From the NCBI RefSeq assembly GCF_002078605.1, contig NZ_MSJR01000008.1, forward strand, positions 124,001-188,000: 64,000 bases of DNA, written 5' to 3'. Of the stretch, positions 9,732 to 59,630 are shown piece after piece. The position numbers and the translations under genes were made by a program. This stretch comes from Salegentibacter sediminis. GTDB lineage: Bacteria; Bacteroidota; Bacteroidia; Flavobacteriales; Flavobacteriaceae. Below the pieces are notes generated by a model that was not told the DNA's origin, ran no database searches, and saw only the letters and a program-made list of their open reading frames with translations. Every line of letters starts with the position of its first letter. The first letter of the stretch is position 1.

Positions 9732-11516
9732 CTACGAAGAGACCAGCATTTCTTCCAGCCTGCTTTCAGCTTTATCCAGAGAAGCTTCAAATCCGTTAGG
9801 GAAGGAATTGTCCTCAAGCAATGTCCGGTAATAAGCGATACCTTCCTGCAAACTTTTAGAAAAATTATTCTGATTCCGTTTACTTTTCTTATCGGGATTT
9901 TTAGTCTCGTTTAGCTCTTCCTGAAAATAATCCAGGTACAGATCCAGCTCTTTGATAAACATATGTGGCCTGTCTTTATTGCTAAGCAGGTCTTTTCTTC
10001 CGTAAATATGATCGGTCATTTCCTGTAGGGAAGCGATCTTTGAGTAATTAGCGATATTTGGTCCCGGACAAATGGTCACCGCTTCCAGTTTTTTCAGGAA
10101 AGGTTCTTTATAAATCACCGGTGCAGCGTTGCTCAAACCAATACAAAGACACTCTTTGGTCAACACTTCGTCGAGTTGTTTTTTCAATTCCTGCTCCGGT
10201 AATCCCGCCCCCTCCAGCTGCTTTATCTTTAGCTTCTGATATTTCGTAGATGCCGTACAAATAGGTTCACTGGTGAATTCGGTATTAGAAACCAGGTATT
10301 TTTCGGTACAGGGGCTTCCGGGCTTAGCCTTTTTTATTCGATCCAGCTTTTCCTTTTCGGCGCTGGTTCCTTTAAGATAATTGAAACGAACCCCCAAAGG
10401 AGAATTCTTACTCAAAACCACATCCTTCTCTCCTGCTTTGCTAAGGAGATCAAGGGTCTTATCATCAACAGTGGTCGCTTCGGGACATAATAAAAATGGC
10501 GTGCCCCATCCGGTACTGTCCACCCCGTAGTTTTTCTGCAGAAACCTGGCCTCTTCAGCAGTCCCTATCCCGCCCTGCACGGTAATTTTTATTGGATGTG
10601 GTTTCTCAAAACCAGCCTGTCCCTTCGCCCTGATGGCAGGATTATAAATACTGAAAAGCTCCTCAGCCAATTCATCTCTTTTACTGCTGAATTCTTCCAG
10701 GATAGGTCCCAGCAATAAGCCCTGGGTGGCGAAAGCGTGTCCACCACAATTCAGGCCTGATTCTATTCTGAATTCACTCACCCAAATGCCTTTTTTGGCC
10801 AGGTATTTCCCCTGGATTAGTGCTGAGCGGTAATCGCTCACCTTAATTACAATCCTTTTGCTGAAGCTTCCCCAGGCCGTAGCGTCAAATTCCCTGAAAT
10901 CTTCCAGATAATTGTAAAGTCTTGGATTCATCCCCGCCGAAAAGATCACGGCCGAATTATCCAAACTGCTTTGTGCATAAGCCTTTAAAGCCTCAAGTGC
11001 ATCGGAACCGTTAGCGATAGGCTCCCCAGATTTATCAAAATTGTTCTTATCTACTTTGGTCATTATATTCACCTCAATAGCGCCTGCCTTAACCTCTTTC
11101 CGCAGTAGCTTCTCCAAAGTCCTTTTCAACTCTGCGTCTCCTGTTTTAATAAACTCATGATATTTTTCCTTCAAACCAGAGTTTTCTGGCAACATCTCAA
11201 AATATTTAACCAAATCTGATCCCGTCTCAAAGGCAGAGTTTCTGATTTTTTCCAGGCGTTTCTGAACATTCCTGTTAACCAAATCCAGGTAATCGGTGAT
11301 ACGACGGGAGCGATAATTCTCTTCCTTATTCGAAATCGGCACATAGGTTTCCCCGGTGTTCTGGTAATAATATTTTCGCATGGTCTCGATAAGGTTATCT
11401 TCAATAATGGAAAGCGCCGAGCTTATACCAAAAGCGGCGACCTTAACGGGAGAATCGATAGTAAAAGCAATACCCATTACAGGGATATGGAACTGGTGCG
11501 GGGATAATGTATTCAT
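9732..11516 (-). CDS. Nitronate monooxygenase/NPD-like TIM-barrel protein, Cys-rich
   Basis: The 594-residue protein carries scattered signatures of the FMN-binding 2-nitropropane dioxygenase fold: IPVMGIAFTIDSPVKVAAFG near the N terminus (12-30), CGGHAF (257-262, equivalent to the EAGGH loop), the phosphate-binding GGIGTAEEA (315-323) and GWGTPFLLCPEA (337-347). It is far longer than ordinary nitronate monooxygenases. There is a helical insertion at about 40-170 and a C-terminal extension with cysteines at 403, 420, 456, 458 and 483, which could bind an iron-sulfur cluster or zinc. Glu in the EAGGH loop is replaced by Cys (NCGGH). It is divergent from the cupin gene and apparently monocistronic. 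Fold assignment is an inference from motifs. The reaction is unknown. Confidence 0.65.
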   Translation of the reverse strand: MNTLSPHQFHIPVMGIAFTIDSPVKVAAFGISSALSIIEDNLIETMRKYYYQNTGETYVPISNKEENYRSRRITDYLDLVNRNVQKRLEKIRNSAFETGSDLVKYFEMLPENSGLKEKYHEFIKTGDAELKRTLEKLLRKEVKAGAIEVNIMTKVDKNNFDKSGEPIANGSDALEALKAYAQSSLDNSAVIFSAGMNPRLYNYLEDFREFDATAWGSFSKRIVIKVSDYRSALIQGKYLAKKGIWVSEFRIESGLNCGGHAFATQGLLLGPILEEFSSKRDELAEELFSIYNPAIRAKGQAGFEKPHPIKITVQGGIGTAEEARFLQKNYGVDSTGWGTPFLLCPEATTVDDKTLDLLSKAGEKDVVLSKNSPLGVRFNYLKGTSAEKEKLDRIKKAKPGSPCTEKYLVSNTEFTSEPICTASTKYQKLKIKQLEGAGLPEQELKKQLDEVLTKECLCIGLSNAAPVIYKEPFLKKLEAVTICPGPNIANYSKIASLQEMTDHIYGRKDLLSNKDRPHMFIKELDLYLDYFQEELNETKNPDKKSKRNQNNFSKSLQEGIAYYRTLLEDNSFPNGFEASLDKAESRLEEMLVSS

Positions 11517-11659
11517 AACTCAAATAATTTTAAGCGGATAAAGGTGAGCAATCAACAGGCATTAAAATATGAGCACAATCATATTTGGAAAAGCTTATCG
11601 TTTTCTTTGCCGATGCTTTTTTGTATCTTCAAAAGTATAATCAATTTAAAACCTGAAGA

Positions 11660-12004
11660 ATGAAAAGCGCATCCCTTTCCAAAAACCTTAATTACAATGA
11701 TTCCAAATCGGCCGTAGAAATTCTGCTGGACACCGATAGCAGCAAAGAAATACGTATCCTGATGAAGAAAGGCCAGGTAATGAAAGAACATAAAACCTCC
11801 TATCCGATCATGGTAGAAATCTTCGAAGGCAAAGTCTCTTTCGGGGTTAATGGCAAAATCCATCATCTTGAAAAAGGTGACCTGGTATCTTTAGAAGCCA
11901 GTATACCTCATGACCTAACAGCCACCGAAGACAGCACCATAAGGCTTTCACTTTCTAAGGCAGATTCTGTAGAAAGAGTAAAAGAAGTGGCTAAAAAAAG
12001 TTAG
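11660..12004 (+). CDS. Single-domain cupin protein
   Basis: The 114-residue protein contains a conserved cupin barrel: a first motif region around residues 38-62 (KEHKTSYPIMVEIFEGKVSFGVNG) and a second around 66-85 (LEKGDLVSLEASIPHDL). It retains two histidines (H41 in the first motif, H82 in the second), fewer than the full metal-binding set, so metal binding is uncertain. It has no signal peptide. Its gene is divergent from the NPD-like gene. Small cupins serve as sensors, isomerases or dioxygenases. No specific reaction can be assigned. Confidence 0.8.
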   Translation: MKSASLSKNLNYNDSKSAVEILLDTDSSKEIRILMKKGQVMKEHKTSYPIMVEIFEGKVSFGVNGKIHHLEKGDLVSLEASIPHDLTATEDSTIRLSLSKADSVERVKEVAKKS

Positions 12005-45204: not shown

Positions 45205-46917
45205 ATGAAAAAAATAAAAATACTTCTTAGCACAATTCTGGTGCTTGCATTTATTTTTTCCTGCGAAGAAGATAACCTTGACCCTATTGGAGAATGGGAT
45301 CTTAGTGAGCCTTCTTTACTTAGCACGAACGAAAGCCTGGTCTTAGATGAAGACCAACCCAACGAGACCTTCGAATTCACCTGGGATCCGGCAGTCTCAA
45401 CCGAGAGATATCAGGTAAGGTATACCCTGATTTTAAGTACTCCGGGAAATTATGAGGCCCCTCTACTTAGTAAAGCTTCCGAAAATGGAGGCCGCGATAC
45501 CAATGGAAGTTTTACTGCTAGTGAAATCGACCTTGCATTATCTTATGCTGGATATAATGCCGGAACAGAAGTTGACCTGGAAGTTGTAGTACTCGCAAAT
45601 AGTATTGATAAACAAACTACCGATGCTGCGGAATTAAGTGTAAAACGTTTTGAATCCGAATACCTTCCCGGGCAATTGTACCTTTCTGGAGAGGCCACCG
45701 AAGCAGGAACTGATCTTTCACAGGCTTTATCAATGAGATCCCTGAAAGATACCGAAAATAACGCCACCGATGTTTTCGAAATCTATACCCATCTCGAAGC
45801 AGGAGCAGCCTTTATGATTTATAGTGAAACTTCCCTTCCCGCTCATACCTATGGGGGTAGCGAAGGAGAACTGGTTAAAAATGGGGATCCGATTATAGTT
45901 GATGAAACCGGGGAATACAGATTAACCGTAGACCTTGCAGAAGGAACATACAACCTTCTGAAGATAGAACACTTAAGTGTTGTTGGCGATGTTATCGCTG
46001 CCGGTTGGGGTGGAGATGAACCTTTGGAATACATCGGCAATGGCGTTTGGGAAGCTGAGCTTTCTCTGAATTCTGGAGGATTCCTTTTCAGGCTTAATGG
46101 CGACTGGGGTTACCTCTTTAAAAGAATTGCCGGCACCCAGAATGAACTTTATATGGAATCCCAGGCAGGAGATGCCGGAATTGAAATTGAAGATATCCCA
46201 TTAGGTGCTCCGGGAGATTATACCGTTACTGTAAACCTTTCAGGAGATACCTACACCTATTCCCTTGAAAGCAACCAGGTAAGCAATCCTCCTTCTGAAA
46301 CCCCTGATGCGCTTTACCTTCTTGCCGATGGCGTAGTAGTATTTGAATTCAATAAAGAAGATGATAAGTTTATGTCAGGTACCTATATTCCGTTACAGGC
46401 GGAAGTAAGCTATCAACTTAACAGCGCTGAAGACGGTACAGGAACAGCCTACTCACTTGACGGAATTATTGGAGAAACCTCCAACCCTGACGGAGATTCA
46501 GCTTTTGGCAGCCTTGGTCTTTTGGAAAGCCCTGGAAATATTTCTCCGGCAAGAGATCAGGCCTATTCCCTGGAATTTAATTTTGCCACGGGAGCGGTAA
46601 ACTGGAAATATTATAACATAAAATTATTCCATTGGGACGAAGAAGGCGGCGGCTGGGATAGTAGGGACGAGTTCCTTATGACCTATGTGCATCCGCATAA
46701 ATTTACGACGACCCAGGCTCTGGAAGCTGGTTACCACCTTAAATTTAATTCCCCCTGGGATATTCAGTTAGGTGGGGACGATCCCGATGCCCTGTCCGGA
46801 ACCATGACCAATGGCGGTCCAAACTTAACCAATATAACAACCTCGGCAACCTACGAGGTGAATATCGAAGTGGCCAATGATTATGAAACCGGAACTTACG
46901 AATTCATTTTACAGTAA
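45205..46917 (+). CDS. SusE/SusF-like outer-membrane glycan-binding lipoprotein of PUL2
   Basis: The 570-residue lipoprotein (signal ending IFSC) has an N-terminal SusE-like Ig domain (about 30-165, EFTWDPAVSTERYQVRYTLI pattern) and two or three CBM-like repeats with the SusF signature (SVVGDVIAAGWGG--PL-Y-GNGVWEAEL-L, then GDWGYLFKR). Aromatic residues in these modules would contact glucan. It has no catalytic motif. Located between two GH30 genes in PUL2, it probably holds the polysaccharide at the surface. Confidence 0.85.
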   Translation: MKKIKILLSTILVLAFIFSCEEDNLDPIGEWDLSEPSLLSTNESLVLDEDQPNETFEFTWDPAVSTERYQVRYTLILSTPGNYEAPLLSKASENGGRDTNGSFTASEIDLALSYAGYNAGTEVDLEVVVLANSIDKQTTDAAELSVKRFESEYLPGQLYLSGEATEAGTDLSQALSMRSLKDTENNATDVFEIYTHLEAGAAFMIYSETSLPAHTYGGSEGELVKNGDPIIVDETGEYRLTVDLAEGTYNLLKIEHLSVVGDVIAAGWGGDEPLEYIGNGVWEAELSLNSGGFLFRLNGDWGYLFKRIAGTQNELYMESQAGDAGIEIEDIPLGAPGDYTVTVNLSGDTYTYSLESNQVSNPPSETPDALYLLADGVVVFEFNKEDDKFMSGTYIPLQAEVSYQLNSAEDGTGTAYSLDGIIGETSNPDGDSAFGSLGLLESPGNISPARDQAYSLEFNFATGAVNWKYYNIKLFHWDEEGGGWDSRDEFLMTYVHPHKFTTTQALEAGYHLKFNSPWDIQLGGDDPDALSGTMTNGGPNLTNITTSATYEVNIEVANDYETGTYEFILQ

Positions 46918-46981
46918 TTAGCCAATACTATTAATTAGACAGATGCCGCTACTATGGCGGCATCTTTTTACCCCTATTGAA

Positions 46982-48403
46982 ATGCACAAACCCTTTAATA
47001 AACCAATACTTCTGGTGCTAATGCTCTTTACATTATTAGCCTGTGATCAGAAGAACGAAAAAAATAATAGTCCGGATGAACCGGAAATGTGGCTCACAAG
47101 TCTTGATAAAAAATCGCTTCTTGAAAAAAGAGAGCTTACAGCTAGCAAGGAAAATGATTTCAAAGCTCAGGCCACTATTACTGTAGACACCTCCAGGAAA
47201 TTTCAGAAGATAGACGGATTCGGATATACCCTAACCGGCGGAAGTGCCCTGCATATAAATCAAATGAGCGATGATGCCAGAAATGAACTCTTACAGGAAC
47301 TTTTTGGTACCGGCAATGATCAGATCGGGGTAAGTTACCTTCGGCTAAGCATTGGGGCATCCGATCTTGATGAGGCTCCGTTTTCCTATAACGACCTGGA
47401 AGAGGGAGAAACCGATGCGCAACTTGAAAAATTCTCTCTGGCTAAGGACAGCCTTCACCTCATTCCGGTATTAAAAGAGATTCTGGAGATCGCCCCTGAT
47501 ATTAAAATCCTTGGGTCCCCCTGGTCTCCTCCGGTTTGGATGAAAGATAATGGAGATACCCGTGGCGGCAGCCTTAAGGAGGAATACTATCCGGCCTATG
47601 CCTTATATTTTGTAAAATACATTCAGGCGATGGCCCAGGAAGGAATCACAATAGATGCCATCACCATTCAGAATGAACCTTTACACCCCGGGAATAATCC
47701 AAGTCTTTTGATGCTGGCAAAAGATCAGGCCGTATTCATTAAAGATCACTTAGGTCCTCTTTTTAAAGAAAAGGGTATTGAGACCAAGATCATCCTGTAC
47801 GATCATAACGCCGATCGCCCCGATTATCCAATTTCTATTCTGGATGATGCAGATGCTGCACAGTATGTAGATGGTTCTGCATTCCACCTCTACGGTGGGG
47901 ATATTAGTGCTCTCTCTAAAGTACACGAAGCTCATCCAGACAAGAATCTTTATTTCACCGAACAATGGGTGGGAGCTCCCGGCAATTTCGCACAGGAGAT
48001 GGAATGGCATACCGAAAACCTTATTATTGGTGCAACCAGGAATTGGAGTAAAAACGTACTGGAATGGAACCTTGCAGCCGATGAAAACCAGCAACCTCAC
48101 ACCGACCGTGGAGGCTGTGATCGCTGCCTTGGCGCTATCACAATAACCGGCGACGAAGTAACCAGAGAACCGGCATACTACATTATAGCCCAGGCTTCCA
48201 AATTTGTTCGTCCCGGTGCTGTTCGTGTAGCTTCAAATATACCTGAGAATGTACCCAACGTTGCCTTTCTTTCCCCCGAAGGAAAAGTGGTGATGATTCT
48301 TCAGAATAAAAATGAAGAACAAAAAAATATAGTCATCGAAATTGGAGAAAGGAGCTATAATGTTTCCCTCCCTGCAAAATCTGTGGCTAGCCTAAACTTT
48401 TAA
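46982..48403 (+). CDS. GH30 glucanase lipoprotein, second copy
   Basis: The product (473 residues from ATG at 46982) has a lipoprotein signal (TLLAC), and the GH30 barrel with acid/base E232 (TIQNEP) and nucleophile E327 (YFTEQWVG). It is a paralogue of the first GH30 in the operon, from which it has clearly diverged (FTEQ versus FTEI at the nucleophile). The two may differ in endo/exo action or chain-length preference. A longer frame from 46943 would precede the signal peptide and is not preferred. It ends 11 bases before the GH3 start. Confidence 0.9.
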   Translation: MHKPFNKPILLVLMLFTLLACDQKNEKNNSPDEPEMWLTSLDKKSLLEKRELTASKENDFKAQATITVDTSRKFQKIDGFGYTLTGGSALHINQMSDDARNELLQELFGTGNDQIGVSYLRLSIGASDLDEAPFSYNDLEEGETDAQLEKFSLAKDSLHLIPVLKEILEIAPDIKILGSPWSPPVWMKDNGDTRGGSLKEEYYPAYALYFVKYIQAMAQEGITIDAITIQNEPLHPGNNPSLLMLAKDQAVFIKDHLGPLFKEKGIETKIILYDHNADRPDYPISILDDADAAQYVDGSAFHLYGGDISALSKVHEAHPDKNLYFTEQWVGAPGNFAQEMEWHTENLIIGATRNWSKNVLEWNLAADENQQPHTDRGGCDRCLGAITITGDEVTREPAYYIIAQASKFVRPGAVRVASNIPENVPNVAFLSPEGKVVMILQNKNEEQKNIVIEIGERSYNVSLPAKSVASLNF

Positions 48404-48414
48404 GAAAAATAACT

Positions 48415-50730
48415 ATGAAAATAAATAAGATAATATTTACTGCTGGAATTTTATTGGCCGGGTTCAATTCCTATGCTCAGGAACAGCCTACTCCTGCAGA
48501 AATAGATAAAAAGGCCACCGAATTACTGGGTAAAATGACCCTGGAAGAAAAGGTTGGCCAAATGACCCAGGTCACCCTCGATGTTATTGGAGAAGGGGAA
48601 GACATATACTCCAGTTTTGAACCTTTTAATCTCGATAAAGAACTGGTGAGGAAAGCAGTTTCCCATTATAAAGTGGGATCCTTTCTGAACACAGCTAATA
48701 ACAGAGCCCTTCCAAGGGAAAAATGGTATGAGATCATCTCTGAAATTCAGGAAATTAATTCCGAAGAGAATGAATTGAATATTCCTATCATTTATGGAGT
48801 AGATGAGATTCATGGTGCCACTTATACCGTAGGCGCTACCATGTTTCCACAGCAAATTGCCCAGGCTGCCAGCCGAAATCCCGGATTGGTAAAAAGGGGA
48901 GCTGAAATAACCGCCTATGAGACCCGGGCCAGCGGAATTCCATGGAATTTCTCGCCGGTATTGGATTTAGGAATGGACCCCAGGTTCTCCCGTATGTGGG
49001 AATCATTTGGGGAAGACCCCTACCTCACTTCGGTACTCGGGGTGGCCATGATAGATGGTTATGAAGGTAAGGATAATAATATTGGCCATCCCCACCACCT
49101 TGCCTCAACGATGAAGCACTTTTTAGGCTATCACGCGGTAACCTCCGGAAAAGACAGAACGCCGGCCTATATCCCAGATGATGTACTAAGAGAATACCAT
49201 CTTCCGTCTTTTAAGGCGGCAATAGATGCAGGTGCGCATAGCATTATGGTCAATTCCGGACTTATTAACGGTAAACCGGTACACGCTAATTACGATCTTC
49301 TCACCAAACTTCTGAAAGAAGAATTAAATTTTGAAGGCCTGGTAGTTACCGATTGGGCCGACATCGAAAACCTACACCGCAGGGATCGCGTGGCTCAAAA
49401 TGATAAAGAAGCTATTAAAATGGCCATAAATGCGGGAATTGATATGTCTATGGTTCCTTATGAATATGAGCGGTTTGTAGAGAAGCTTCTGGAATTAGTA
49501 AAAGAAGGCGAGGTTAAGGAATCGCGCATCGATGATGCGGTAAAAAGAATTCTGAAAGTAAAACTCGCGCTAAACCTCTTCGAAGTTCCCGTTACTCACT
49601 ATGAGGATTATCCGAAATTTGGGAGTGAAGAATTTGAGCAGGAGGCCTTCAATATGGCTGCGGAGGCGATTACCCTTTTAAAAAATGAAAGTGATGTGTT
49701 ACCCCTTCAAAAAGATGTAAAAGTATTGGTGACCGGCCCAAATGCCAACTCCATGAGAACCCTGAACGGGGCGTGGACCTATTCCTGGCAAGGAGAAAAA
49801 ACACCCGAATTTGCTGAAGATTATAACACTATTTATGAGGCTGTAGCCAATAAACTCGGGAAACAGAACGTGATCTTTGAAGCGGGTGTTAATTATAAAA
49901 ATGACGGCAAGTATTTTGAAGAAGAAGATGCTGGTATTGCAAATGCTGTAAAACAGGCAGAAAATGTTGAGTACATTTTGTTAATCCTTGGAGAGAATTC
50001 TTATACCGAAAAACCGGGTGACCTGAATGATCTCTATATCTCTGATCTTCAAACTCAGCTCGCAAAAGAATTAGCAGCCACAGGGAAACCGGTAATTCTT
50101 ATTCTTAATGAAGGCCGCCCAAGGATAATAAGCAAATTCGAACAGGATATGGCCGCCGTGGTACAAACTTACCTCCCTGGAAATTTTGGTGGCGATGCCC
50201 TGGCCGATATCTTATTCGGAGATATCAACCCTTCCGGAAAACTGCCTTATACCTATCCGCGCTATCCTAATGCCTTGATTCCGTATATTCATAAACCTTC
50301 CGAAGAGCAAACCAAAGCCGAAGGAGTTTATAATTACGAAGCCGATTTTAATCCGCAGTATCCTTTTGGGTTCGGACTTAGTTATACCGATTTTGAAGTT
50401 TCAGACCTTCAAATCGATAAGACCGAAATCACCCAAAACGATACCTTCACCCTAAGTGTGAAATTATCTAATACGGGAAATCGCAGCGGAAAGGAAGTAG
50501 TTGAAGTTTACAGTTCAGATTTGTACGCCTCAGAGATCACGCCCGATGTAAAAAGACTTCGGAAGTTTAGAAAAGTAGAACTTGCTGCTGGAGAAACCAA
50601 AACTATCGAATTTAATATCAGTACCTCCGACCTGGCATCGGTTAATACCCAGGGAGAAACAATCGCAGAGCCGGGAGAATTCGAGATATCTGTAAAGGAT
50701 CTCAAAAAAACTATTCTTCTGAAAGAATAA
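48415..50730 (+). CDS. GH3 family beta-glucosidase of PUL2
   Basis: The 771-residue exported enzyme has a signal peptide ending near SYA/Q (residue 21), a GH3 N-domain with nucleophile D313 in VVTDWADI, the KHFLGY and RGxxGE-like substrate-binding motifs, a C-domain with KNESDVLPL, and a fibronectin-III-like tail from about 665. It should release glucose from the non-reducing ends of imported oligosaccharides in the periplasm. It is the last gene of PUL2 and is followed by a terminator at 50755-50792. Confidence 0.94.
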   Translation: MKINKIIFTAGILLAGFNSYAQEQPTPAEIDKKATELLGKMTLEEKVGQMTQVTLDVIGEGEDIYSSFEPFNLDKELVRKAVSHYKVGSFLNTANNRALPREKWYEIISEIQEINSEENELNIPIIYGVDEIHGATYTVGATMFPQQIAQAASRNPGLVKRGAEITAYETRASGIPWNFSPVLDLGMDPRFSRMWESFGEDPYLTSVLGVAMIDGYEGKDNNIGHPHHLASTMKHFLGYHAVTSGKDRTPAYIPDDVLREYHLPSFKAAIDAGAHSIMVNSGLINGKPVHANYDLLTKLLKEELNFEGLVVTDWADIENLHRRDRVAQNDKEAIKMAINAGIDMSMVPYEYERFVEKLLELVKEGEVKESRIDDAVKRILKVKLALNLFEVPVTHYEDYPKFGSEEFEQEAFNMAAEAITLLKNESDVLPLQKDVKVLVTGPNANSMRTLNGAWTYSWQGEKTPEFAEDYNTIYEAVANKLGKQNVIFEAGVNYKNDGKYFEEEDAGIANAVKQAENVEYILLILGENSYTEKPGDLNDLYISDLQTQLAKELAATGKPVILILNEGRPRIISKFEQDMAAVVQTYLPGNFGGDALADILFGDINPSGKLPYTYPRYPNALIPYIHKPSEEQTKAEGVYNYEADFNPQYPFGFGLSYTDFEVSDLQIDKTEITQNDTFTLSVKLSNTGNRSGKEVVEVYSSDLYASEITPDVKRLRKFRKVELAAGETKTIEFNISTSDLASVNTQGETIAEPGEFEISVKDLKKTILLKE

Positions 50731-50754
50731 TACTAAAAACACCTTCTGTTGATT

Positions 50755-50792
50755 AAGGGTTTAACCAGTTTTAAAGGTTAAACCCTTTTTTT
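50755..50792 (+). terminator. Intrinsic terminator at end of PUL2
   Basis: AAGGGTTTAACC (50755-50766) pairs perfectly with GGTTAAACCCTT (50776-50787) around a 9-base loop and runs into a T-tract. It lies 24 bases after the GH3 stop codon. Confidence 0.93.
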
Positions 50793-50901
50793 ATTTTAAA
50801 TACTAAACCATAACCGAGAATCGGGCATAGCCCCCTGACAAATATCATTGTTTTTCAAAGCTTTGGCGACTACCTTGATAGTCTCAAGAAACTTTAGGGC
50901 T

Positions 50902-52635
50902 ATGAATGCTACAGAAAAAAAAGCAGCCTATAACCTCGCCGATTATAACAGCGAAAGAACCTCCTTTTCCTGGAAGAATATTGAAAGTAAACTGGAGCTG
51001 GGGAAAACAAAGGGAGGATATAATATCGCGCATCTGGCGGTTGATCGTCACGCCAACACAAGTCTAAAAAGCACCCTGGCTTTCCGGTTTATTCAAAAGG
51101 ACAGGAGCCCGCAGGACTACAGCTATTCCCGTTTAAAGGAAGAGACTTCAAGATTTGCCAATGTGCTCCGCTCGCTGGGCATTCAGAAAGGGGAAACGGT
51201 CTTTTCCCTGGCCGGCAGGATCCCGGCTTTATATATCACTGCCCTGGGAACCCTGAAGACTACAGCCGTGTTTTGCCCACTCTTTTCCGTTTTCGGGCCT
51301 GAACCAGTTTTTCAGCGCCTGCATAAAGGAGAAGCCAAAATTCTGGTCACTACTTCTGCTTTATATGAAAAGACCGTAAAACAACTTGAAGAAAGGCTCC
51401 CTTTTCTGCGATATATAATCCTTAGCGACCTGGAAGAACATCAATCGGGAAAAGTGCTTTCCTGGTCCCGACTTATGAAAGAGGCTTCTTCCGACTTTAA
51501 GATCCCGCCCACGTCACCTGAGGATCCCGCGCTGCTACACTTTACCAGCGGTACTACCGGAATGCCTAAGGGCACCCTTCACGTTCATAAAGCCGTGCTC
51601 ACCCATTATATCACAGGAAAATTTGTGCTGGATTTTCATCAGGGAGATCTATTCTGGTGTACTGCCGATCCCGGTTGGGTAACCGGCACTTCTTACGGGA
51701 TTATAGCGCCCCTGGTCAATGGGGTTACTTCTATCATAGATCAGGAGGAATTTGATGCCATGCGCTGGTATGCTATTTTGGAAGAACAAAAAGTAAATAT
51801 CTGGTATACCGCTCCCACCGCCATCAGGAGGTTGATGCGAATGGAAATAAAACCCCGTGAAAAATTTAATCTGGGTGCTCTGCGCGTAATTTTAAGCGTG
51901 GGAGAGCCACTTAGTGCGGAAGCTGTGCTCTGGGGGGAACACAGCTTCGGAATTCCCATCCTGGACAACTGGTGGCAAACCGAAACCGGAGGCATTATGA
52001 TCGCTAATTATCCTTCCATGCCGGTAAGGCCCGGGTCCATGGGTAAACCCCTCCCCGGAATTGAAGCCGCCCTGGCGGAAGTGACCGAAGATGGATTAAA
52101 TTTCATAAAAGAACCCGGGAAACAGGGACATCTGCTGCTAAAAAAAGGATTTCCTTCCCTGTTTCGCGACTACCTGCATGAAGAAGAACGCTACCACAAA
52201 TGTTTTACTGGCGAGTGGTATCTCACCGGGGACCTGGCCAAAAAAGATAGCGACGGGTATTTCTGGTTCATAGGCAGGGCCGACGATATCATAAAAACCA
52301 GCGGCCATATGGTAGGCCCTTTTGAGGTGGAAAGCACCCTGATGAGACATCCTGCAATCGCTGAAGCTGCAGTGATAGGAAAACCCGAAGCCTCTATCGG
52401 GGAGTTGGTAAAGGCTTTTGTGGTTCTTAAGCCTGGAGAACCTACCAATGAAGAAATGAAACTGGACATTATAGGCTTTGCCCGAAAACATATGGGGCCG
52501 GCGGTAGCCCCTAAAGAAATCGAATTTATTGCCAGTGTGCCCAAAACCCGAAGCGGAAAAATCCTGCGCCGCCTTTTAAAAGCCCGGGAACTGGGATTAC
52601 CCGAAGGTGACACCTCCACTTTAGAACAAACCTGA
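50902..52635 (+). CDS. Acetyl-CoA synthetase-like acyl-CoA ligase
   Basis: The product (577 residues from ATG at 50902) is an ANL-superfamily enzyme. It has the P-loop-like FTSGTTGMPKG (about 213-223), A5 DNWWQTETGG, YLTGDLAKKDSDGYFWFIGRADDI and a C-terminal KTRSGKILRR with the catalytic, regulatable lysine. It converts a short carboxylate plus CoA and ATP to acyl-CoA and AMP. Length fits AcsA of Gram-positive type rather than the 650-residue Acs. An earlier TTG at 50848 is less likely than the ATG. It is the first gene of the operon and is followed after 2 bases by E1 alpha. Confidence 0.88.
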   Translation: MNATEKKAAYNLADYNSERTSFSWKNIESKLELGKTKGGYNIAHLAVDRHANTSLKSTLAFRFIQKDRSPQDYSYSRLKEETSRFANVLRSLGIQKGETVFSLAGRIPALYITALGTLKTTAVFCPLFSVFGPEPVFQRLHKGEAKILVTTSALYEKTVKQLEERLPFLRYIILSDLEEHQSGKVLSWSRLMKEASSDFKIPPTSPEDPALLHFTSGTTGMPKGTLHVHKAVLTHYITGKFVLDFHQGDLFWCTADPGWVTGTSYGIIAPLVNGVTSIIDQEEFDAMRWYAILEEQKVNIWYTAPTAIRRLMRMEIKPREKFNLGALRVILSVGEPLSAEAVLWGEHSFGIPILDNWWQTETGGIMIANYPSMPVRPGSMGKPLPGIEAALAEVTEDGLNFIKEPGKQGHLLLKKGFPSLFRDYLHEEERYHKCFTGEWYLTGDLAKKDSDGYFWFIGRADDIIKTSGHMVGPFEVESTLMRHPAIAEAAVIGKPEASIGELVKAFVVLKPGEPTNEEMKLDIIGFARKHMGPAVAPKEIEFIASVPKTRSGKILRRLLKARELGLPEGDTSTLEQT

Positions 52636-52637
52636 TC

Positions 52638-53624
52638 ATGAAAAATAAAAACAATTTAGATCCGGAGAAAGCCGAAAAACTTCTGTTTCAGATGCTCCTA
52701 ATGAGAAAGTTCGAAGAGAAGAGTGCTGAGCTCTACACCAAAGAAAAAATAAGAGGTTTTCTGCATCTCTATATAGGTGAGGAAGCAGTAGCCACAGGGA
52801 TCATACAGGCCCTTAAGCCTGAAGATTATATCCTTGCAACCTACCGGGAACATGCCCATGCTCTGGCACGTGGGGTGGACGCGGGGGTAATTATGGCCGA
52901 GATGTATGGCAAACAGGAAGGCTGTAGTCGCGGTCGTGGCGGTTCCATGCACCTCTTTGATAAAGAAAAAAACTTCTTTGGCGGCAATGCAATAGTAAGC
53001 GGTCATCTCCCCCTGGCCACGGGTATGGCCCTGGCTTCCAAAAAACTAAAAAGGGATAACATCACGGTCTGCTTTTTCGGCGAAGGAGCGGCAGCAGAGG
53101 GGGAATTCCATGAAGCCCTTAACCTGGCTTCGCTCTGGAAAGTGCCTGTACTGTTCGTTTGTGAAAATAACCTGTATGCCATGGGCACTGCCCTACGCTA
53201 CACTCATGCTGTACAGGAAATTGAAAAAAAAGGCCCTGCCTATGGGATAGAATCGAAAGCGGTAGACGGGATGGACCTGCTAAAGCTAATGGAAGCCGCT
53301 AATAAAGCCGTAGAGCAGGTAAGAAGTTCAGGGGAGCCCTACCTGCTGGTGTGCAACACTTACCGTTTCAGGGCACATTCCATGTTTGATGCTGAATTAT
53401 ATCGGGATAAAACCGAAGTTGAAAAATGGAAAAAACGCGATCCTATTCCAAAATTCCGGAAATATTTGCTGAAGGAGAATTTGATAAGCGAGGCGAAAGT
53501 TCAGGAATTAGAAAAAAGACTGAATACCGAAATCCAGAAAGCCGTCGACTTAGCCGAAGCAGGAACCTGGGAAGCTAAAGAGGAACTCACAAGATTTGTC
53601 TATTCTGAAAACCCTGTATCATGA
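52638..53624 (+). CDS. 2-oxo-acid/acetoin dehydrogenase E1 component, alpha subunit
   Basis: The 328-residue protein is a TPP-dependent E1 alpha with the [24 protein letters not shown] cofactor-binding block (in short: FGEGAAAEG...VLFVCENN), [11 protein letters not shown] and the phosphorylation-loop-like [17 protein letters not shown]. With E1 beta it decarboxylates a 2-oxo-acid or acetoin and passes the acyl or acetyl group to lipoamide. It overlaps the E1 beta start by 4 bases. Length and the [19 protein letters not shown] motif resemble the pyruvate/acetoin dehydrogenase subgroup. Confidence 0.9.
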
Positions 53625-54607
53625 GTGAACTAAAGAAAATAACATACCGCGAAGCCCTGAAAGCAGGGATAAGGGAAGCTCTTCTCAATGATGACAGGGT
53701 ATTTCTTATGGGAGAAGATGTAGGCCGCTACGGGGGTGCCTTTGCGGTGAGCAAAAGTTTATTGGAAGAATTCGGGGAAGACCGGATTATGGACGTACCG
53801 CTCTCGGAATCGGGCTTTGTAGGAGCGGGTATCGGCGCCTCCCTGGCCGGGATGAAACCCATCGTGGAGGTGATGACGGTTAATTTTGGGCTACTCCCCA
53901 TGGACCAGATCGTAAACAATGCCGCAACTTTATTACATATGTCGGGAGGACAACTAAACGTGCCGGTAGTGATACGCATGAGCTGCGGGATAGGGAAACA
54001 GCTCGCTGCCCAGCATTCCCACAGTTGGGAGCCCTTATTTGCCCATATCCCGGGGCTGGTGGTAGTCTCGGTGGGAACTCATGAAGATGCGAGAGGAATG
54101 TTGCATACCGCCCTGGAACATCCCGATCCGGTGATCATTTTTGAATATACTTCTATGCTCAATCTGGAAGCTGAAATACAAATTGATGCCGGGCACACCG
54201 ATATTTCACGGGCAAAAGTCCGCCGGGAGGGAAAAGATATCTCCATTATCACCTACGGGATCGGGGTTTACAAGGCACTGGAGGCTGCAAAGCGTCTTTC
54301 GGAACAGGGCATAGATGCCGAAGTCATCGATCTTAGGGTACTCCGGCCTTTGGATGAGGATTGCTTTATAAAATCGGTTAGCAAAACCCACCGGGCATTG
54401 CTGGTAGAAGAAGCCTGGGCCTCTGTTAATATCTCTTCAGAAGTTAGCGCCCGTATTATGGAAAATGCCTTCTATGAGCTGGATGCCCCGGTGAAAAGAT
54501 TAGGCGGAAGCGAGGTGCCTATCCCCTATCCCCTACACCTGGAGAATGCCTCTGTGCCGCAGGTGGAAGATATAGAAAATGCAGTAATTAAAATACTCAG
54601 GCCATGA
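53621..54607 (+). CDS. 2-oxo-acid/acetoin dehydrogenase E1 component, beta subunit
   Basis: The 328-residue protein matches E1 beta: [31 protein letters not shown]... then [21 protein letters not shown], and [11 protein letters not shown] in the C-terminal transketolase domain. It forms the alpha2-beta2 E1 and binds TPP through the shared interface. ATG overlaps the end of E1 alpha by 4 bases (ATGA) and its stop overlaps the E2 start by 4 bases, so the three are translationally coupled. Length is normal. Confidence 0.92.
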
Positions 54608-55821
54608 CAGACTTTTTAATGCCCAGCCTTGGGGCCGATATGGAAGCAGGGACGCTGGTGCAATGGAAAAAGAAACCCGGCGACCAACTCACACCGGGAG
54701 ATATCATTGCCGAGGTGGAAACCCAGAAAGGTCTTATTGAAATCGAGATTTTTGAAGCGGGGATCCTAGAAAGTTATCTCATCGAAGAGGGCGATAAAGT
54801 GCCAGTAGGCAGCCCCATGGCAAGACTCAGGCCTGAAGGCAGCTCTAAAAAAACCCCGGAAACACACCCTATTCAGGAAAAAAGCCAGGCCTCCAAGCCT
54901 TTGGCAGCTATTTCTGAAAAAACACCTTCAGAAAGCAGCTCTTCCCAAAAGAAAACTTCCGAAGAAATACCGCGGATTAAAATTTCTCCCCTTGCCCGCA
55001 GTATCGCCGAAAAAAATGGAATTGACCTATCAAGCATCACGGGCAGCGGGGAAGGAGGAGCTATCATCAAAGCAGATGTAGAAAAGGCCATGGTAGCGAA
55101 GGCCGGGGAGCCTGCCGGAAAAGAAACCAGGGAAGCGCCCTCTACCGCAAAAACAATTCCACAGGAAAGCATCCGCACTGCTGTGGCCGCTGCTATGAGC
55201 AGGTCCAACCGGGAGATTCCGCATTATTACCTCGAAAAAAGGATAGACATGCTGGCAGCGATGACCTGGTTACAGGAAGTCAACCGGCAACGGAAAATCT
55301 CCGAGAGGTTGCTTCCAGTGGTGTTGTTCATCAAAGCGGTAGCCAAAGCCTTAGAAAGCTCTCCTGAACTGAATGGCATATGGGATAATGGCCTGCAAAT
55401 CCAAAACCAGGTAAATATAGGTTTTGTTATCTCCCTTCGAGCCGGTGGACTGCTGGTACCCGCCATCCGCGACGCCGATCTCAAAAGCCCGGAAGAGATC
55501 ATGGCAGTATTGAACGAGCTTATCCCCCGGGCCCGCGCCCTGAAACTCCGCAGTTCAGAGCTTAGCGATTCCACCATCACTATTACCAGTCTTGGTGAAA
55601 ATGGCGCCGATAAGGTGTTTGGAGTGATTTATCCTCCGCAGGTCGCTATTGTAGGTTTTGGCAGTATAATCAATGAGGCAGTGGTTCATGAGGGAATGCT
55701 GGCCATACGTCCTGTGGTTCACGTTAGTCTTGCCGGAGATCACCGCGCCACAGACGGGCTCTCTGGTAGCCGTTTCCTGGAAGCTCTTAATAATAATTTA
55801 CAAAATCCCAACGCCTTATGA
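54604..55821 (+). CDS. Dihydrolipoamide acyltransferase E2 component
   Basis: The 405-residue E2 has an N-terminal lipoyl domain (about 1-75) with lipoyl-lysine K42 in [10 protein letters not shown], a Ser/Pro/Lys-rich linker, a peripheral-subunit-binding domain (about 118-155, [26 protein letters not shown]) and a C-terminal catalytic domain (about 180-405) with GDHRATDG (H380, D384). It transfers the acyl group from lipoamide to CoA. There is a single lipoyl domain. No E3 gene follows. The expected acceptor is CoA, but the ACP gene immediately downstream makes ACP a possible alternative acceptor. It overlaps the ACP start by 4 bases. Confidence 0.92.
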
Positions 55822-56063
55822 CTCGTGAACACATCCAATCGACCATCTTTGAGCTCCTTAAAAAGACAGCTCCCGAAACAGATCCCCACAGCCTACGTCC
55901 CGATGAAAACATAAGGGAAGCACTTAATATTGACTCCTTTGATGCCCTGCAATTTCTTGTCGCTTTAAATGAAAAACTCGGAATCGATATCCCCGAAGAA
56001 GACTATAGCAAGACAACCACACTTGGTTCCCTGACAGATTATTTGGAGCAAAGGTCCCGGTAA
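55818..56063 (+). CDS. Stand-alone acyl carrier protein
   Basis: The 81-residue acidic protein has the phosphopantetheine attachment pattern ALNIDSFDALQF (S40) and an overall three-to-four-helix acyl carrier fold (IQSTIFELLKKTAPE...GIDIPEEDYSKTTTLGSLTDYL). It starts with ATG overlapping the E2 stop by 4 bases, so it is made in step with the complex. It is not near fab genes. It would carry the acyl group produced by the ligase or E1-E2 unit. The target pathway is not visible here. Confidence 0.85.
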   Translation: MTREHIQSTIFELLKKTAPETDPHSLRPDENIREALNIDSFDALQFLVALNEKLGIDIPEEDYSKTTTLGSLTDYLEQRSR

Positions 56064-56605
56064 AGGGTCAAGCCCGGGATGACGACTCAAAGAAAACCGC
56101 ATACCCGAAAACGCACAACCGGGAACCCACAACCGGAAAGCGCAGGATGAGATTCCGGGTTAAGCCCGGAATGACGATTTCAACGAAACCGCAGAACCGA
56201 GAACGCACAACCGAGAACCGAGAACTCACCACTGAAGAAACCCACTTCTCCCGTCACCCTGAGCTTGACTAAGGACCTTGTTCGCCCGACGTAACACCCC
56301 TTGCCTGCTCAAATTTTCATAAATCCGGTTTTGATAAACTGAAATCAAAACTGCCTACAATAAAAAGAATTTCAATCTGAACGTGCCCATTAAACCAAAC
56401 TCAATTTTTTTTCCTTAAATTAGTAGCCAAGCTTAAGCTCACCCCCAACTAATTCCAATACCTGTTCCCTGCCCCGGGAGATTATTACTAATAATAAGCT
56501 TTTTACCAATACCGGTCTATTGTCGTTTTTTAGATGTTTTCTAAAAAAAGAAGTTTTGAATTCCCCACCATAATAGTATTAAAGGAAATTAAATCCCATT
56601 GTTCA
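56064..56605. repeat. Intergenic dispersed palindromic repeats
   Basis: This 542-base gap contains a cluster of dispersed repeat units: a partial GGGTCAAGCCCGGGATGAC unit at 56065-56083, a full GGATGAG unit at 56145-56175 with ATTCCGGG/CCCGGAAT arms (56152-56172), accompanying AACCGAGAAC-type short repeats (56180-56230), and a degenerate ACCCTGAG-type palindrome at about 56256-56275. These recur at 59637-59985. The last third (56330-56605) is AT-rich and would hold the promoter for the LytTR regulator. No ORF was supported. Confidence 0.75.
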
Positions 56606-57352
56606 ATGATTCAGCCCATACAGATATTACTAGTTGAAGATGAGATGATTATTGCCGCAACCATTTCCCTGCAACTTACAGAAATGGGCTATGAAGTTTC
56701 AGGAATTATACCCCGTGGGGAAGACGCCCTGCACCTGATTAAGAAAAATCTGCCGGATATCGTCCTGATTGACATTCAGCTTAGAGGTCGCTTAGACGGA
56801 ATTGATACCGCCCGGAAAATGCAGGAATTATGTCCTAATCTTGCTATCATCTATCTTACGCCCAATGCAGACCAGGCAAATTTTGAAAGGGCAAAAGATA
56901 CCAAACCCTATGCTTTTATTTCCAAACCTTTTAAAAGATTGGATTTACAGCGAACTATAGAATCAACTGTAAATCAGATAAGCTGTAGTATTAAAATCCA
57001 GGACCCGGATGTAAAGACCGAAAATTCTACTTACATCCTTAAAGATTGCCTTTTTATAAGACATCATGAAAGCATGATTAAATTGGATATTAAAGCGATT
57101 AGGTATATTGAGGCCGAGCGAAATTATAGCAGAATCTTTTGTAGCGAAAAAGAGCATCTGTTAGTATCCTCCCTTAAAGAAATGAATAAAAAACTTCCGC
57201 AACAACACTTTTTAAGAATCCATAGGTCATATATTATCAACCTCTCCCGAATAGATGAAATCGCAGGAACCTATGTTGTTATTGCAAAAAAGGCCATCCC
57301 CATGACTAAAGCAATGCGACCCGAACTTTTAAAAAGGTTACAAACCATTTAA
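56606..57352 (+). CDS. LytTR-family response regulator
   Basis: The product (248 residues from ATG at 56606) has a receiver domain (about 5-120) with phospho-acceptor D56 (LIDIQL), acidic pocket E11/D12/E13 and a conserved K near 105 (SKPFKR). A C-terminal LytTR DNA-binding domain (about 145-245) shows YIEAERNYSRIFC and FLRIHRSYIINLSRIDEI. It would bind direct-repeat-like sites near -35 after phosphorylation. A longer frame from 56534 lacks receiver homology. No kinase is adjacent, so its partner is unknown. It is followed by genes for two secreted proteins and an epimerase that may be targets. Confidence 0.92.
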   Translation: MIQPIQILLVEDEMIIAATISLQLTEMGYEVSGIIPRGEDALHLIKKNLPDIVLIDIQLRGRLDGIDTARKMQELCPNLAIIYLTPNADQANFERAKDTKPYAFISKPFKRLDLQRTIESTVNQISCSIKIQDPDVKTENSTYILKDCLFIRHHESMIKLDIKAIRYIEAERNYSRIFCSEKEHLLVSSLKEMNKKLPQQHFLRIHRSYIINLSRIDEIAGTYVVIAKKAIPMTKAMRPELLKRLQTI

Positions 57353-57412
57353 GGCTTCGGGAAAATAAACAGCCCTTTGGGACAGCATTCCCAGGTATTC
57401 GTCCTAAACAAC

Positions 57413-57443
57413 TTGATTTCAACAAATTACAATTCTACTTTAG
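57413..57443 (+). promoter_or_regulatory. Probable promoter of the secreted-protein operon
   Basis: TTG (57413-57415) is followed after 20 bases by TACTTTAG (57436-57443), a one-mismatch Bacteroidota -7 box. It lies 27 bases before the ATG at 57471. It is consistent with independent transcription of the 57471-59630 genes. Confidence 0.45.
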
Positions 57444-57470
57444 GTTGCTATTAATCTAAAATAGTATATT

Positions 57471-58238
57471 ATGAATACTCTAAAATTTATGGCCTTATTT
57501 ATTGCAGTTATAGGCTTAAACACCAATGCATTATTTTCCCAAAACGGTAGTTCCAATCAGGCTTTTTGGATACATGAAGATCAGGTTAAACCCTCTATGC
57601 TTAAGGAATATGAAGCCGCTACCAAAGATTTTATCGCGGCCTGTAAAGAACATGATCTAAAAGACTATGACTGGTCTACTGCCCAGGTTAATGGCGGTAA
57701 TTATTTGAGCATTGCCCCGATTGAAAAAATGGCCGATTTCGATAAGAATCCTCTGGCGCCTTTAGCCGAAAAAATGGGAGAAGAAAAATTCAGAGCCATG
57801 TTTTCCCGATTTGATAAAACTTATGACGTACACAAAAATTATATAGTCCATTTAATTAAGGACCTATCTTATATGCCAAATGGCATGGACACCAACACCC
57901 CCGGCCAGGACTACAGAAAATGGCACTTCTTTTACGTGACTCCTCAAAATGTTGCTAATCTTCGGAATAAGATAAATGAAATTAAAAACTTATATGAAGA
58001 AAAGGGCGCAAAAGAACACTTCAGGATCTATCGCAATGGCTTCGGGACTCCCGGCGATTATTACCTCGCAGTAATTTCGGCAAAGGATGAACAATCCTAT
58101 GCAAAAATTTCCGATGAAACAGAAACGCTTCTGGGAGAAGAAGGCAATAGACTCTTTGAAGAAATGATGAAATATGTGCATAAATATGAAACTAAAACCG
58201 GCCGTATGCGCCCCGACCTGGCGTATACATCTAATTAA
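57471..58238 (+). CDS. Secreted protein of unknown function
   Basis: The 255-residue protein has a signal peptide (cleavage near LFSQ, residue 24) and two similar halves (about 28-130 and 140-240) of mixed alpha/beta character, each with WIHEDQV/WHFFYVT-like aromatic segments. This is reminiscent of a dimeric alpha-beta-barrel (ABM-like) fold. There is no clear active site. It lies between an orphan LytTR regulator and a smaller secreted protein gene, with which it is probably co-transcribed (11-base gap). The family is not recognised. Confidence 0.75.
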   Translation: MNTLKFMALFIAVIGLNTNALFSQNGSSNQAFWIHEDQVKPSMLKEYEAATKDFIAACKEHDLKDYDWSTAQVNGGNYLSIAPIEKMADFDKNPLAPLAEKMGEEKFRAMFSRFDKTYDVHKNYIVHLIKDLSYMPNGMDTNTPGQDYRKWHFFYVTPQNVANLRNKINEIKNLYEEKGAKEHFRIYRNGFGTPGDYYLAVISAKDEQSYAKISDETETLLGEEGNRLFEEMMKYVHKYETKTGRMRPDLAYTSN

Positions 58239-58249
58239 AAACAATCACG

Positions 58250-58672
58250 ATGAAAAGCCTGAGATCATATTTTTTCCTTATTTCGTTTGTTTTACTGGGG
58301 GTTAGTCCGTCAAATGCTCAGAACACAAATAATCAATTGATCGTGCAGGAGATCTACGATTATTTGCAGGATAAAAATTCCACTTCCCGGGATATAGCCC
58401 GCTTAACCGGGAAGATAAAATGGGATGATGAAATCCACCGGAAAAACCTCCCTAAAAAGAACGGGATAAATTTTATCACGGTGCTGAATAATGAATATGG
58501 CAGGGTTTTATTCGAAAGGCTGAGCTTTAAGGAAGTAGAAAGAGATAAGGTGGTGGTTACGGGAATAATGAGTGGCCGCCAGGCTACCGAATGTGAATAT
58601 ATCTCCACCAATTTTCAGCATAAATGGTCCTTAGCTTTAGCTCAAGGGCAAATCATCGGCTTTTCTGAATAA
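58250..58672 (+). CDS. Small secreted protein of unknown function
   Basis: The 140-residue protein has a signal peptide ending near SNA/Q (residue 23) and a compact domain with alternating charged and hydrophobic strands (YDYLQDKNSTSRDIARLTGK, VVVTGIMSGRQATECEYIS). A single Cys is present. It starts 11 bases after the preceding gene and ends 19 bases before the epimerase gene, suggesting a three-gene unit. No family was recognised. Confidence 0.7.
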   Translation: MKSLRSYFFLISFVLLGVSPSNAQNTNNQLIVQEIYDYLQDKNSTSRDIARLTGKIKWDDEIHRKNLPKKNGINFITVLNNEYGRVLFERLSFKEVERDKVVVTGIMSGRQATECEYISTNFQHKWSLALAQGQIIGFSE

Positions 58673-58691
58673 GCCTGAACAATGACAAAAA

Positions 58692-59630
58692 ATGAAACGA
58701 GTAGGAATTATAGGAGGCTCGGGCTTTATTGGCAGCTATATAACCCGAAAATTTTTAGAGGAAGCCTACGAGGTTAAAGTCTCGGTTACCGATATTAATA
58801 AAAGTGAAAAATATAAACATCTTTTCAACCTAAAAAATTCCGATAATCTGCACATCCAGGCCTTAAAAGTAGAACAGTTTGAAGCTCTTGAGAATTTCAT
58901 CAAAGATTGTGATTTGGTGATCCATAGCGGTACTCCTTTTCAACTCGATGTAAAAGACCCGCAGACGGAACTCCTTGATCCTACAATAAAAGGCACCCAG
59001 AATTTCCTCCGGGCTATAAGCGCAGCCAAAGATATTGAAAAACTGGTTTTTATAGCTTCGGTAGCGGCCTGGAACACCAATTTCCCTATGCCCGCCGGCG
59101 GTAAAAGCTTTACCGACACCTACGATGAAAATGAAGTAGGCTATACCAATTCTCAGAGCCATCCTTATGCCCGGGCAAAATTTATCGCCAACCAGATGGT
59201 AAACGATTTTATAAAAGAAAATCCCCAGCTCCTATTTGAAATAAGCTCCCTTTCCCCGGTAATGGTAATGGGAAGATCACTATCAAAAAGGGAAGATTCG
59301 ACCTCCACGGGGATGCAGTTTCTTATAAAAAACAACATAGCTCCTAACGATTTTACCCAGGCCCTCTTCGATAATGATGTTCCTTTTGCGGTAGTGGATG
59401 TAGAAGATGTGGCAGAAGCAAGCTTCCTTGCGGCCACAAAAAAGGGCCTTCACGGAAAGAATTATTTATTGAGTAGTGAAACCTTTAAAGTATCTGATAT
59501 TCATGAAATGCTTAATAAAAGGGAGCCTAAGGAAAAAGCGCAGGTTATCTATAAAAACGACCTGGCAAAAACCGATTTGGGAGTTCAATTCAGGCCGGTA
59601 AAACAAACCCTCAACACCTATTCAACATAA
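58692..59630 (+). CDS. Extended SDR: NAD-dependent epimerase/dehydratase-like
   Basis: The 312-residue protein has the GGSGFIGS motif (8-15) for NAD(P) binding and the catalytic S123, Y159 and K163 (YARAK). It resembles dihydroflavonol-4-reductase/ketoreductase-like extended SDRs that act on small carbonyl compounds. It has no signal peptide and is cytoplasmic. It is the last gene of the probable unit with the two secreted proteins. Substrate is unknown. Confidence 0.88.
   Translation: MKRVGIIGGSGFIGSYITRKFLEEAYEVKVSVTDINKSEKYKHLFNLKNSDNLHIQALKVEQFEALENFIKDCDLVIHSGTPFQLDVKDPQTELLDPTIKGTQNFLRAISAAKDIEKLVFIASVAAWNTNFPMPAGGKSFTDTYDENEVGYTNSQSHPYARAKFIANQMVNDFIKENPQLLFEISSLSPVMVMGRSLSKREDSTSTGMQFLIKNNIAPNDFTQALFDNDVPFAVVDVEDVAEASFLAATKKGLHGKNYLLSSETFKVSDIHEMLNKREPKEKAQVIYKNDLAKTDLGVQFRPVKQTLNTYST

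Follow-up and report, generated by a model that had tools for sequence, protein, structure and literature searches.

A pyruvate dehydrogenase-like operon with a near-obligate acyl carrier protein and an acetate ligase recurs in distant bacterial groups

Introduction

Textbook 2-oxo-acid dehydrogenase complexes yield acyl-coenzyme A (acyl-CoA). A precedent for the use of a carrier protein is the quinocarcin type, in which, according to the accessible passages of PMC6335953, proteins resembling E1 and E2 make use of an acyl carrier protein (ACP) to attach a two-carbon unit (QncN/QncL/QncM). The glycolyl set of these Qnc and Scl systems consists, in the same passages, of an E1-like protein, an E2-like protein, an ACP and a phosphopantetheinyl transferase, and a ketose phosphate is the proposed source; the accessible text of PMC9570651 contains nothing on the quinocarcin ACP step. 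The subject of this work is a five-gene operon in a 64,000-nucleotide stretch of the Salegentibacter sediminis genome (contig NZ_MSJR01000008.1, positions 124,001 to 188,000; denoted the window), in which an acetate ligase, E1α, E1β, E2 and a free-standing ACP follow one another. This operon and its relatives in other genomes will be denoted as the cassette.

No paper on the five-gene unit was found in searches of an open-access library, as judged by the entries listed. Annotation in plasmid records names the parts one by one, and annotation pipelines describe the cassette as an acyl carrier protein together with ordinary pyruvate dehydrogenase (PDH) parts. The occurrence of the fixed unit in distant bacterial groups suggests a route, so far undescribed, by which two-carbon units reach a carrier protein of their own. 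The reading preferred here, tentatively and with a chance somewhat short of even, is a PDH-like complex that borrows its E3 and delivers pyruvate-derived acetyl to the dedicated ACP, with acetate as a second source.

Results

Operon layout and gene assignment

A sequence-only reading of the window had described five open reading frames (ORFs) joined by a 2-base gap and three 4-base overlaps, with the attachment serine of the ACP, Ser40, located within NIDSF. All of these details are confirmed in the sequence, the junctions between consecutive ORFs being +2, -4, -4 and -4 bases (Table 1). The ligase has 577 amino acids counted from the ATG at 50902, while the mechanical ORF starts at a TTG at 50848. 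It scores 857.8 bits against the acetate--CoA ligase equivalog NF003313 (cut-off 729), and E1α and E1β likewise exceed the cut-offs of the PDH E1 alpha equivalog TIGR03182 (446.2 bits, cut-off 393.85) and of NF006667 (379.9 bits, cut-off 321). These family matches point to acetate as the probable acid of the ligase and to pyruvate as that of E1.

The E2 contains a lipoyl (PF00364), an E3-binding (PF02817) and an acyltransferase domain (PF00198). Its best curated model, TIGR01349, yields 256.2 bits, which is below the cut-off of 445; the acetoin E2 model NF011457 yields 76.3 bits (cut-off 307), and the other listed E2 models also remain below theirs. The ACP reaches no curated ACP cut-off either (best model NF009104, 45.5 bits, cut-off 70). 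The G+C fraction is 0.44 to 0.50 in the operon genes compared with 0.428 in the window as a whole; values of 0.486 and 0.495 are found for the copies in two genomes of the same genus.

Table 1. Genes of the operon, with positions in the window and family assignment
Gene product	Position	Strand	Assignment
Ligase, AMP-forming acetate--CoA ligase (AcsA type), first gene	50902-52635	+	NF003313, PF00501, PF13193
E1α, pyruvate dehydrogenase type	52638-53624	+	TIGR03182 over cut-off
E1β, pyruvate dehydrogenase type	53621-54607	+	NF006667 over cut-off
E2, distinct subtype, lipoyl + E3-binding + acyltransferase domains	54604-55821	+	Pfam domains
Free-standing ACP, attachment site Ser40	55818-56063	+	PF00550 over cut-off

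Conservation of the five-gene order

An E2 alignment was compared with 84,980 species genomes and gave at least 582 confirmed relatives, the best 80 of which were kept (the 80 scan loci). The order ligase-E1α-E1β-E2-ACP is found in 75 of them and the remaining five are cut by contig ends: L059, L060, L065 and L079 start after the ligase, and the contig of L096 stops at the E2 stop codon. The proposal that the five genes form a unit is borne out by these loci. An ACP lies downstream of the E2 in 79 of the 80, directly in 78 and after about 1 kb in L052. By their record titles, the scan loci belong to Bacteroidota, Cyanobacteria, Chloroflexota, several delta-proteobacterial groups, Alpha- and Betaproteobacteria, Campylobacterota, Verrucomicrobia, Planctomycetes, Acidobacteria, Actinobacteria, Nitrospirota, Deinococcota and Balneolota. 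The same five-gene order, which the sequence-only reading had recommended to search for in other genomes, is accordingly present across distant bacterial groups. The nearest named locus among the matches listed is that of Salinimicrobium sp. TH3.

The five-gene arrangement is far beyond chance, and an accidental gene order is rejected both by the order across the scan loci and by the comparison of sampled cassette and ordinary loci given below. A start codon that yields a 4-base E2-ACP overlap is possible for 73 of the 80 ACP matches, an upper bound as starts were chosen for overlap. The distances between the genes co-vary (r = 0.48 to 0.80 in 51 loci, reached by 0 of 500 permutations), which is compatible with inheritance as a unit and indistinguishable from shared ancestry. 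Broken or short genes are confined to single loci, namely the E2 of L051, the E1α of L074, the ligases of L088 and L119 and the ACP of L119.

Within the genus, the ACP occurs in 2 of 14 other genomes, one of these being only 61% complete. Of 395 genomes of the same phylum, the one with the window included, 4 contain the E2 at E below 1e-100. Among 72,556 plasmid records 17 contain a relative of the E2, and all five that were opened carry the five genes, annotated and in order. A phage-borne ACP was considered as well and finds no support, as no match to the ACP is present among 50,697 phage records at E 1e-6.

Several variants of the layout are observed. In Flavobacterium-type loci (L034, 11649-14863; L035/L046) ligase, E1α and E1β are separated by insertions that encode a trypsin/PDZ protease and small cysteine-rich proteins. 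In the alphaproteobacterial cassettes L095, L107 and L117, E1α and E1β appear as one long open frame of about 667 amino acids, and in L085 the ACP is followed in tandem by another member of its family (11254-11873).

Comparison with ordinary pyruvate dehydrogenase loci

For a comparison with ordinary PDH loci, an E2 profile was built from 58 sequences and applied to genome samples of three classes, E2s with 363 bits and above being assigned to a high class and those with 334 and below to a low class. The bit ranges were derived from two of the samples, since the score cut-off in that of the class of Vogesella admitted no low-class E2. High-class E2s occur in 15 of 289 genomes (class of Alsobacter), 10 of 274 (class of Vogesella) and 18 of 296 (class of Streptomyces), where each sample includes a centre genome that was picked as a carrier of the cassette; the three centre genomes are shared with the set of 80 scan loci. 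By these counts the unit is commoner than the sequence-only reading had implied.

In all 43 fetched sampled loci the ACP is located directly behind the high-class E2, whereas it is found at 0 of 27 ordinary PDH-type (low-class) E2s; the ACP had been proposed to belong to the unit, and these numbers agree. Absence of the ACP from relatives, which would speak for an accidental coupling, was looked for in both sets and, apart from the contig ending at its E2 stop, is encountered in a single genome (G1283, described below). A second cassette copy in genome G586 has all five genes as well.

Longer stretches of up to 20 kb were compared for 29 of the 43 cassette loci, chosen for long flanks, and for 23 ordinary loci. 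E1α-E1β-E2-ACP is intact in all 29 and the ligase lies directly upstream in 28, while in L223 it is convergent and located just downstream. None of the 23 ordinary stretches contains an ACP or a ligase. The 112 E1β sequences from cassettes (some genomes repeated) form one group with a support of 0.925 against 23 ordinary ones. The separate E2 and E1β groups and the control loci uphold the earlier distinction of the unit from ordinary PDH operons.

The position of the ligase bears on an alternative in which this enzyme itself charges the ACP, using acetate or another short acid, with E1 and E2 providing acetyl-CoA in parallel. Ligases of the AMP-forming superfamily often load carrier proteins, and ligase and ACP occur together in the 75 uncut scan loci (75/80, the others being cut by contig ends) and in 29 of 29 sampled stretches. 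However, the ACP gene adjoins the E2 and not the ligase, L223 with its opposite strand being the sole case of a ligase beside the ACP, and by its score the ligase belongs to the acetate--CoA ligase equivalog. This alternative is distinctly unlikely on balance.

E3 and other components encoded elsewhere in the host genome

An E3 is present nearby in 0 of the 29 cassette stretches compared with 12 of the 23 ordinary ones, and in 20 of 20 cassette-bearing genomes tested an E3 over the cut-off is encoded. The earlier expectation that E3 comes from elsewhere is in line with both counts. A rearranged standard operon with E3 just outside, which had also been considered, is not supported by the 29 sampled loci; this holds less strictly for the scan loci, since an E3-like ORF lies within 10 kb in 4 of 80 (L101, L115, L116 and L119), three of them Campylobacterota by title. 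In L101, L116 and L119, titled Campylobacterales, Sulfuricurvum and Sulfurimonas, the nearby E3-like ORF is 32-35% identical to the E3 of the genome carrying the window.

This genome (3.26 Mb, 22 contigs) encodes two full-length E3s over the TIGR01350 cut-off, both on other contigs and none in the operon, as well as one match to a phosphopantetheinyl transferase. Three further E2s are found elsewhere in the genome. One of them is located on contig C20 with an E1α beside it, and the cassette is therefore unlikely to be the housekeeping PDH.

Besides the ACP of the operon, the only one of the cassette kind, the genome encodes one other ACP with 20% identity to it. As lipoyl assembly uses octanoyl-ACP, the cassette ACP could in principle supply octanoyl-ACP for lipoylation of the cassette E2. 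With a second ACP, three further E2s elsewhere in the genome and a single ACP of the cassette kind, the general ACP can presumably serve lipoylation, and a lipoylation role of the cassette ACP appears extremely improbable.

Conserved residues of ACP, E2 and ligase

The Asp39-Ser40 pair is invariant in 81 of 81 cassette ACPs, as is one proline, and the motifs IAP[ED] and IPE.DY set these 81 sequences apart as a family of their own. In the E2s, lipoyl Lys42 and catalytic His380 are invariant (58/58) and the glycines of the E3-binding domain nearly so. The WWQTETG motif is kept in 71 of 74 cassette ligases. Together with the family matches, the conserved residues support the predicted chemistry of E1 and E2.

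These observations also bear on the main rival to transfer onto the ACP, namely an E2 that acetylates only CoA as in ordinary PDH, with the ACP as a bound accessory or regulatory subunit that, for example, senses the acyl state or stabilizes the assembly. E1 and E2 retain the ordinary catalytic residues, the ligase belongs to a family that makes acetyl-CoA, and ACPs are known as subunits of respiratory complex I (according to PDB chain names, where the query alignment included the other ACP of the genome). On the other hand, the Asp-Ser pair, unchanged in all 81 ACPs, speaks for a functional phosphopantetheine arm, and ordinary PDH loci lack an ACP beside the E2 (0/27). An exclusive use of CoA with an accessory ACP is considered unlikely, if weightier than the other alternatives.

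Differences between 58 cassette E2s and 37 ordinary E2s are observed at positions with positively charged side chains. A basic residue at position 153 is present in 37 of 37 ordinary but in 1 of 58 cassette E2s, Arg197 in 34 of 37 compared with 0 of 58, and Arg223 in 37 of 37 compared with 0 of 58; the basic residue at position 196 is also lost from the cassette E2s. In the structure model of the E2 (mean predicted local distance difference test score, pLDDT, 86.9) the first helix of the acyltransferase domain comprises residues 186-199. None of the residues of the CoA thiol or active site given in the accessible parts of PMC10415282, PMC5986005, PMC8421416 and PMC9681731 can be matched to E2 positions 196, 197 or 223.

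A deviating locus is found in genome G1283 (L250, 8744-11856; E2 profile 312.9 bits), where ligase and E2 occur without E1 or ACP beside them. Its E2 has lost the lipoyl lysine and, with DRR instead of DHR in the catalytic site, the catalytic histidine; it also contains two stretches of E3-binding domain. Judged by the surroundings of the locus, this would fit an E2 that works only together with E1 and ACP; another role of this ligase-E2 pair is equally possible.

Discussion

Proposed mechanism and points against it

The cassettes have their genes, domains, catalytic residues and fixed order in common, and the ACP is near-obligate. In the proposed mechanism E1 would decarboxylate pyruvate and thereby acetylate the lipoyl arm of E2, and an E3 made elsewhere would dock on the E3-binding domain of E2 and re-oxidize the lipoyl arm. 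The acyltransferase domain would then transfer acetyl onto the phosphopantetheine arm of the neighbouring ACP, either in place of CoA or in addition to it, and so form acetyl-ACP. The ligase could feed the same pool from free acetate, either via acetyl-CoA or by direct loading of the ACP. We infer the transfer to the ACP from two points, its near-obligate presence beside the E2 and the precedent of the quinocarcin type; acetyl as the acyl group and the role of the ligase are inferred as well.

Several points weigh against delivery of acetyl to the ACP. The ligase is by family a normal acetate--CoA ligase, consistent with CoA as its product. The cassette E2s have not only lost basic residues but also gained them at positions 31, 200, 203, 230, 279, 354 and 369, where ordinary E2s are mostly without. 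Some of the changes affect the first helix of the acyltransferase domain, at the tip of which E. coli E2p carries an arginine that docks the lipoyl domain, according to the accessible part of PMC8421416; they may therefore concern docking instead of the acceptor. Finally, in the neighbour clustering no gene outside the five, a user of the ACP included, is common to the majority of the loci. For this reason the downstream user may be a general host pathway.

The precedent itself provides a further alternative, in which E1 and E2 would take the two-carbon unit of a ketose phosphate or another 2-oxo-acid and charge the ACP with glycolyl or a different acyl group. According to the accessible passages of PMC6335953, a glycolyl unit is handled by parts resembling E1, E2 and ACP in the case of QncN/QncL/QncM and, by homology, of SclQ1-4. 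Extra AMP-binding genes are found near a few cassettes (L126, and a cluster in 4 loci). Contrary to this, the E1α of the window passes the PDH equivalog cut-off, an acetate ligase lies within the cassette, and no neighbour cluster, the clusters not being individually annotated, is present in the majority of the loci. A glycolyl-type substrate is very improbable for these reasons.

A farther-reaching proposal, that the cassettes represent a widespread, mobile and undescribed class of 2-oxo-acid dehydrogenases with a dedicated ACP as the natural acceptor instead of CoA, is rather doubtful at present. If it is true, pyruvate and acetate would be converted into a protein-bound acetyl separate from the CoA pool and possibly used under stress or low oxygen.

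Genomic neighbourhood and candidate users

The largest neighbour clusters comprise 16 of 80 and 15 of 114 loci; in the 114-locus set many clusters contain antisense frames, some contigs are short and the clusters are not individually annotated. Possible ACP users are seen at single loci, namely a ketosynthase-III-domain gene at the edge of a Rhodococcus stretch, an acylglycerophosphate acyltransferase gene at a Sinorhizobium locus and two AMP-binding genes at a Cupriavidus locus.

A stress-island context of the cassette is hinted at by several neighbourhoods. All five opened annotated plasmid loci, of 17 with a match, carry a gene for a universal stress protein or Hsp20, and OsmC, a D-2-hydroxyacid dehydrogenase and a short-chain dehydrogenase are located beside the cassette of L034 (G126), the layout of which is like that of Flavobacterium limicola L035/L046. 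In the class samples, 10 of 29 cassette loci have selected stress markers nearby, compared with 2 of 23 ordinary loci (Fisher p = 0.046, uncorrected, the markers having been selected once the plasmids had been inspected); of the 80 scan loci, 22 have such markers nearby. Among the annotated ORFs of the window around the operon (45205-59630) no stress-type gene is seen. On a Rhodococcus DK17 plasmid (L124, 1615-19890) the cassette is accompanied by a phosphoenolpyruvate synthase, a kinase of the 1-phosphofructokinase family, a universal stress protein and a GAF sensor kinase with response regulator. This gene set is reminiscent of a putative hypoxia (DosR-like) set.

In the window itself, a glucan-use cluster is located upstream of the operon (45205-50730) with a SusE-like protein, an endo-1,6-beta-glucanase-like protein, which is below its NCBIfam cut-off, and a BglX-like beta-glucosidase. 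A BglX-like gene with 91% identity also adjoins the cassette in a genome of the same genus (G007). Directly 3' of the ACP gene a 69-base repeat is found in two copies that are 81% alike (56065-56225).

Comparison with known systems

Among the known systems, PDH of the α2β2-E1 type is matched by the cassette in its E1α, E1β, three-domain E2 and retained catalytic residues. The cassette differs from it by an operon that contains an acetate ligase and an ACP in place of E3, which commonly though not always accompanies PDH genes, by an E2 below the PDH cut-offs and by the separate E1β group. Acetoin dehydrogenase has E1α, E1β and E2 components too, but the E2 of the window is far below the cut-off of the acetoin E2 model. 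By score the first gene is a full member of acsA, joined here to PDH parts, and the ACP corresponds to type II ACPs in its DS motif with the attachment serine and in PF00550. With Qnc and the scleric acid proteins SclQ1-4, as described in the accessible passages of PMC6335953, the cassette shares the pairing of E1-like and lipoyl acyltransferase proteins with a small ACP. In the same passages those systems are located in natural-product clusters. At the cassette loci, whose neighbours are partly annotated, no neighbour cluster is present in the majority. A conserved cassette that combines an E2 subtype and an ACP of its own in many phyla would give pyruvate carbon a second outlet apart from CoA. 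The PDH-type parts are known; new, as far as the open-access library shows, is their combination with an acetate ligase and a near-obligate ACP in a predicted PDH-like complex without an E3 of its own.

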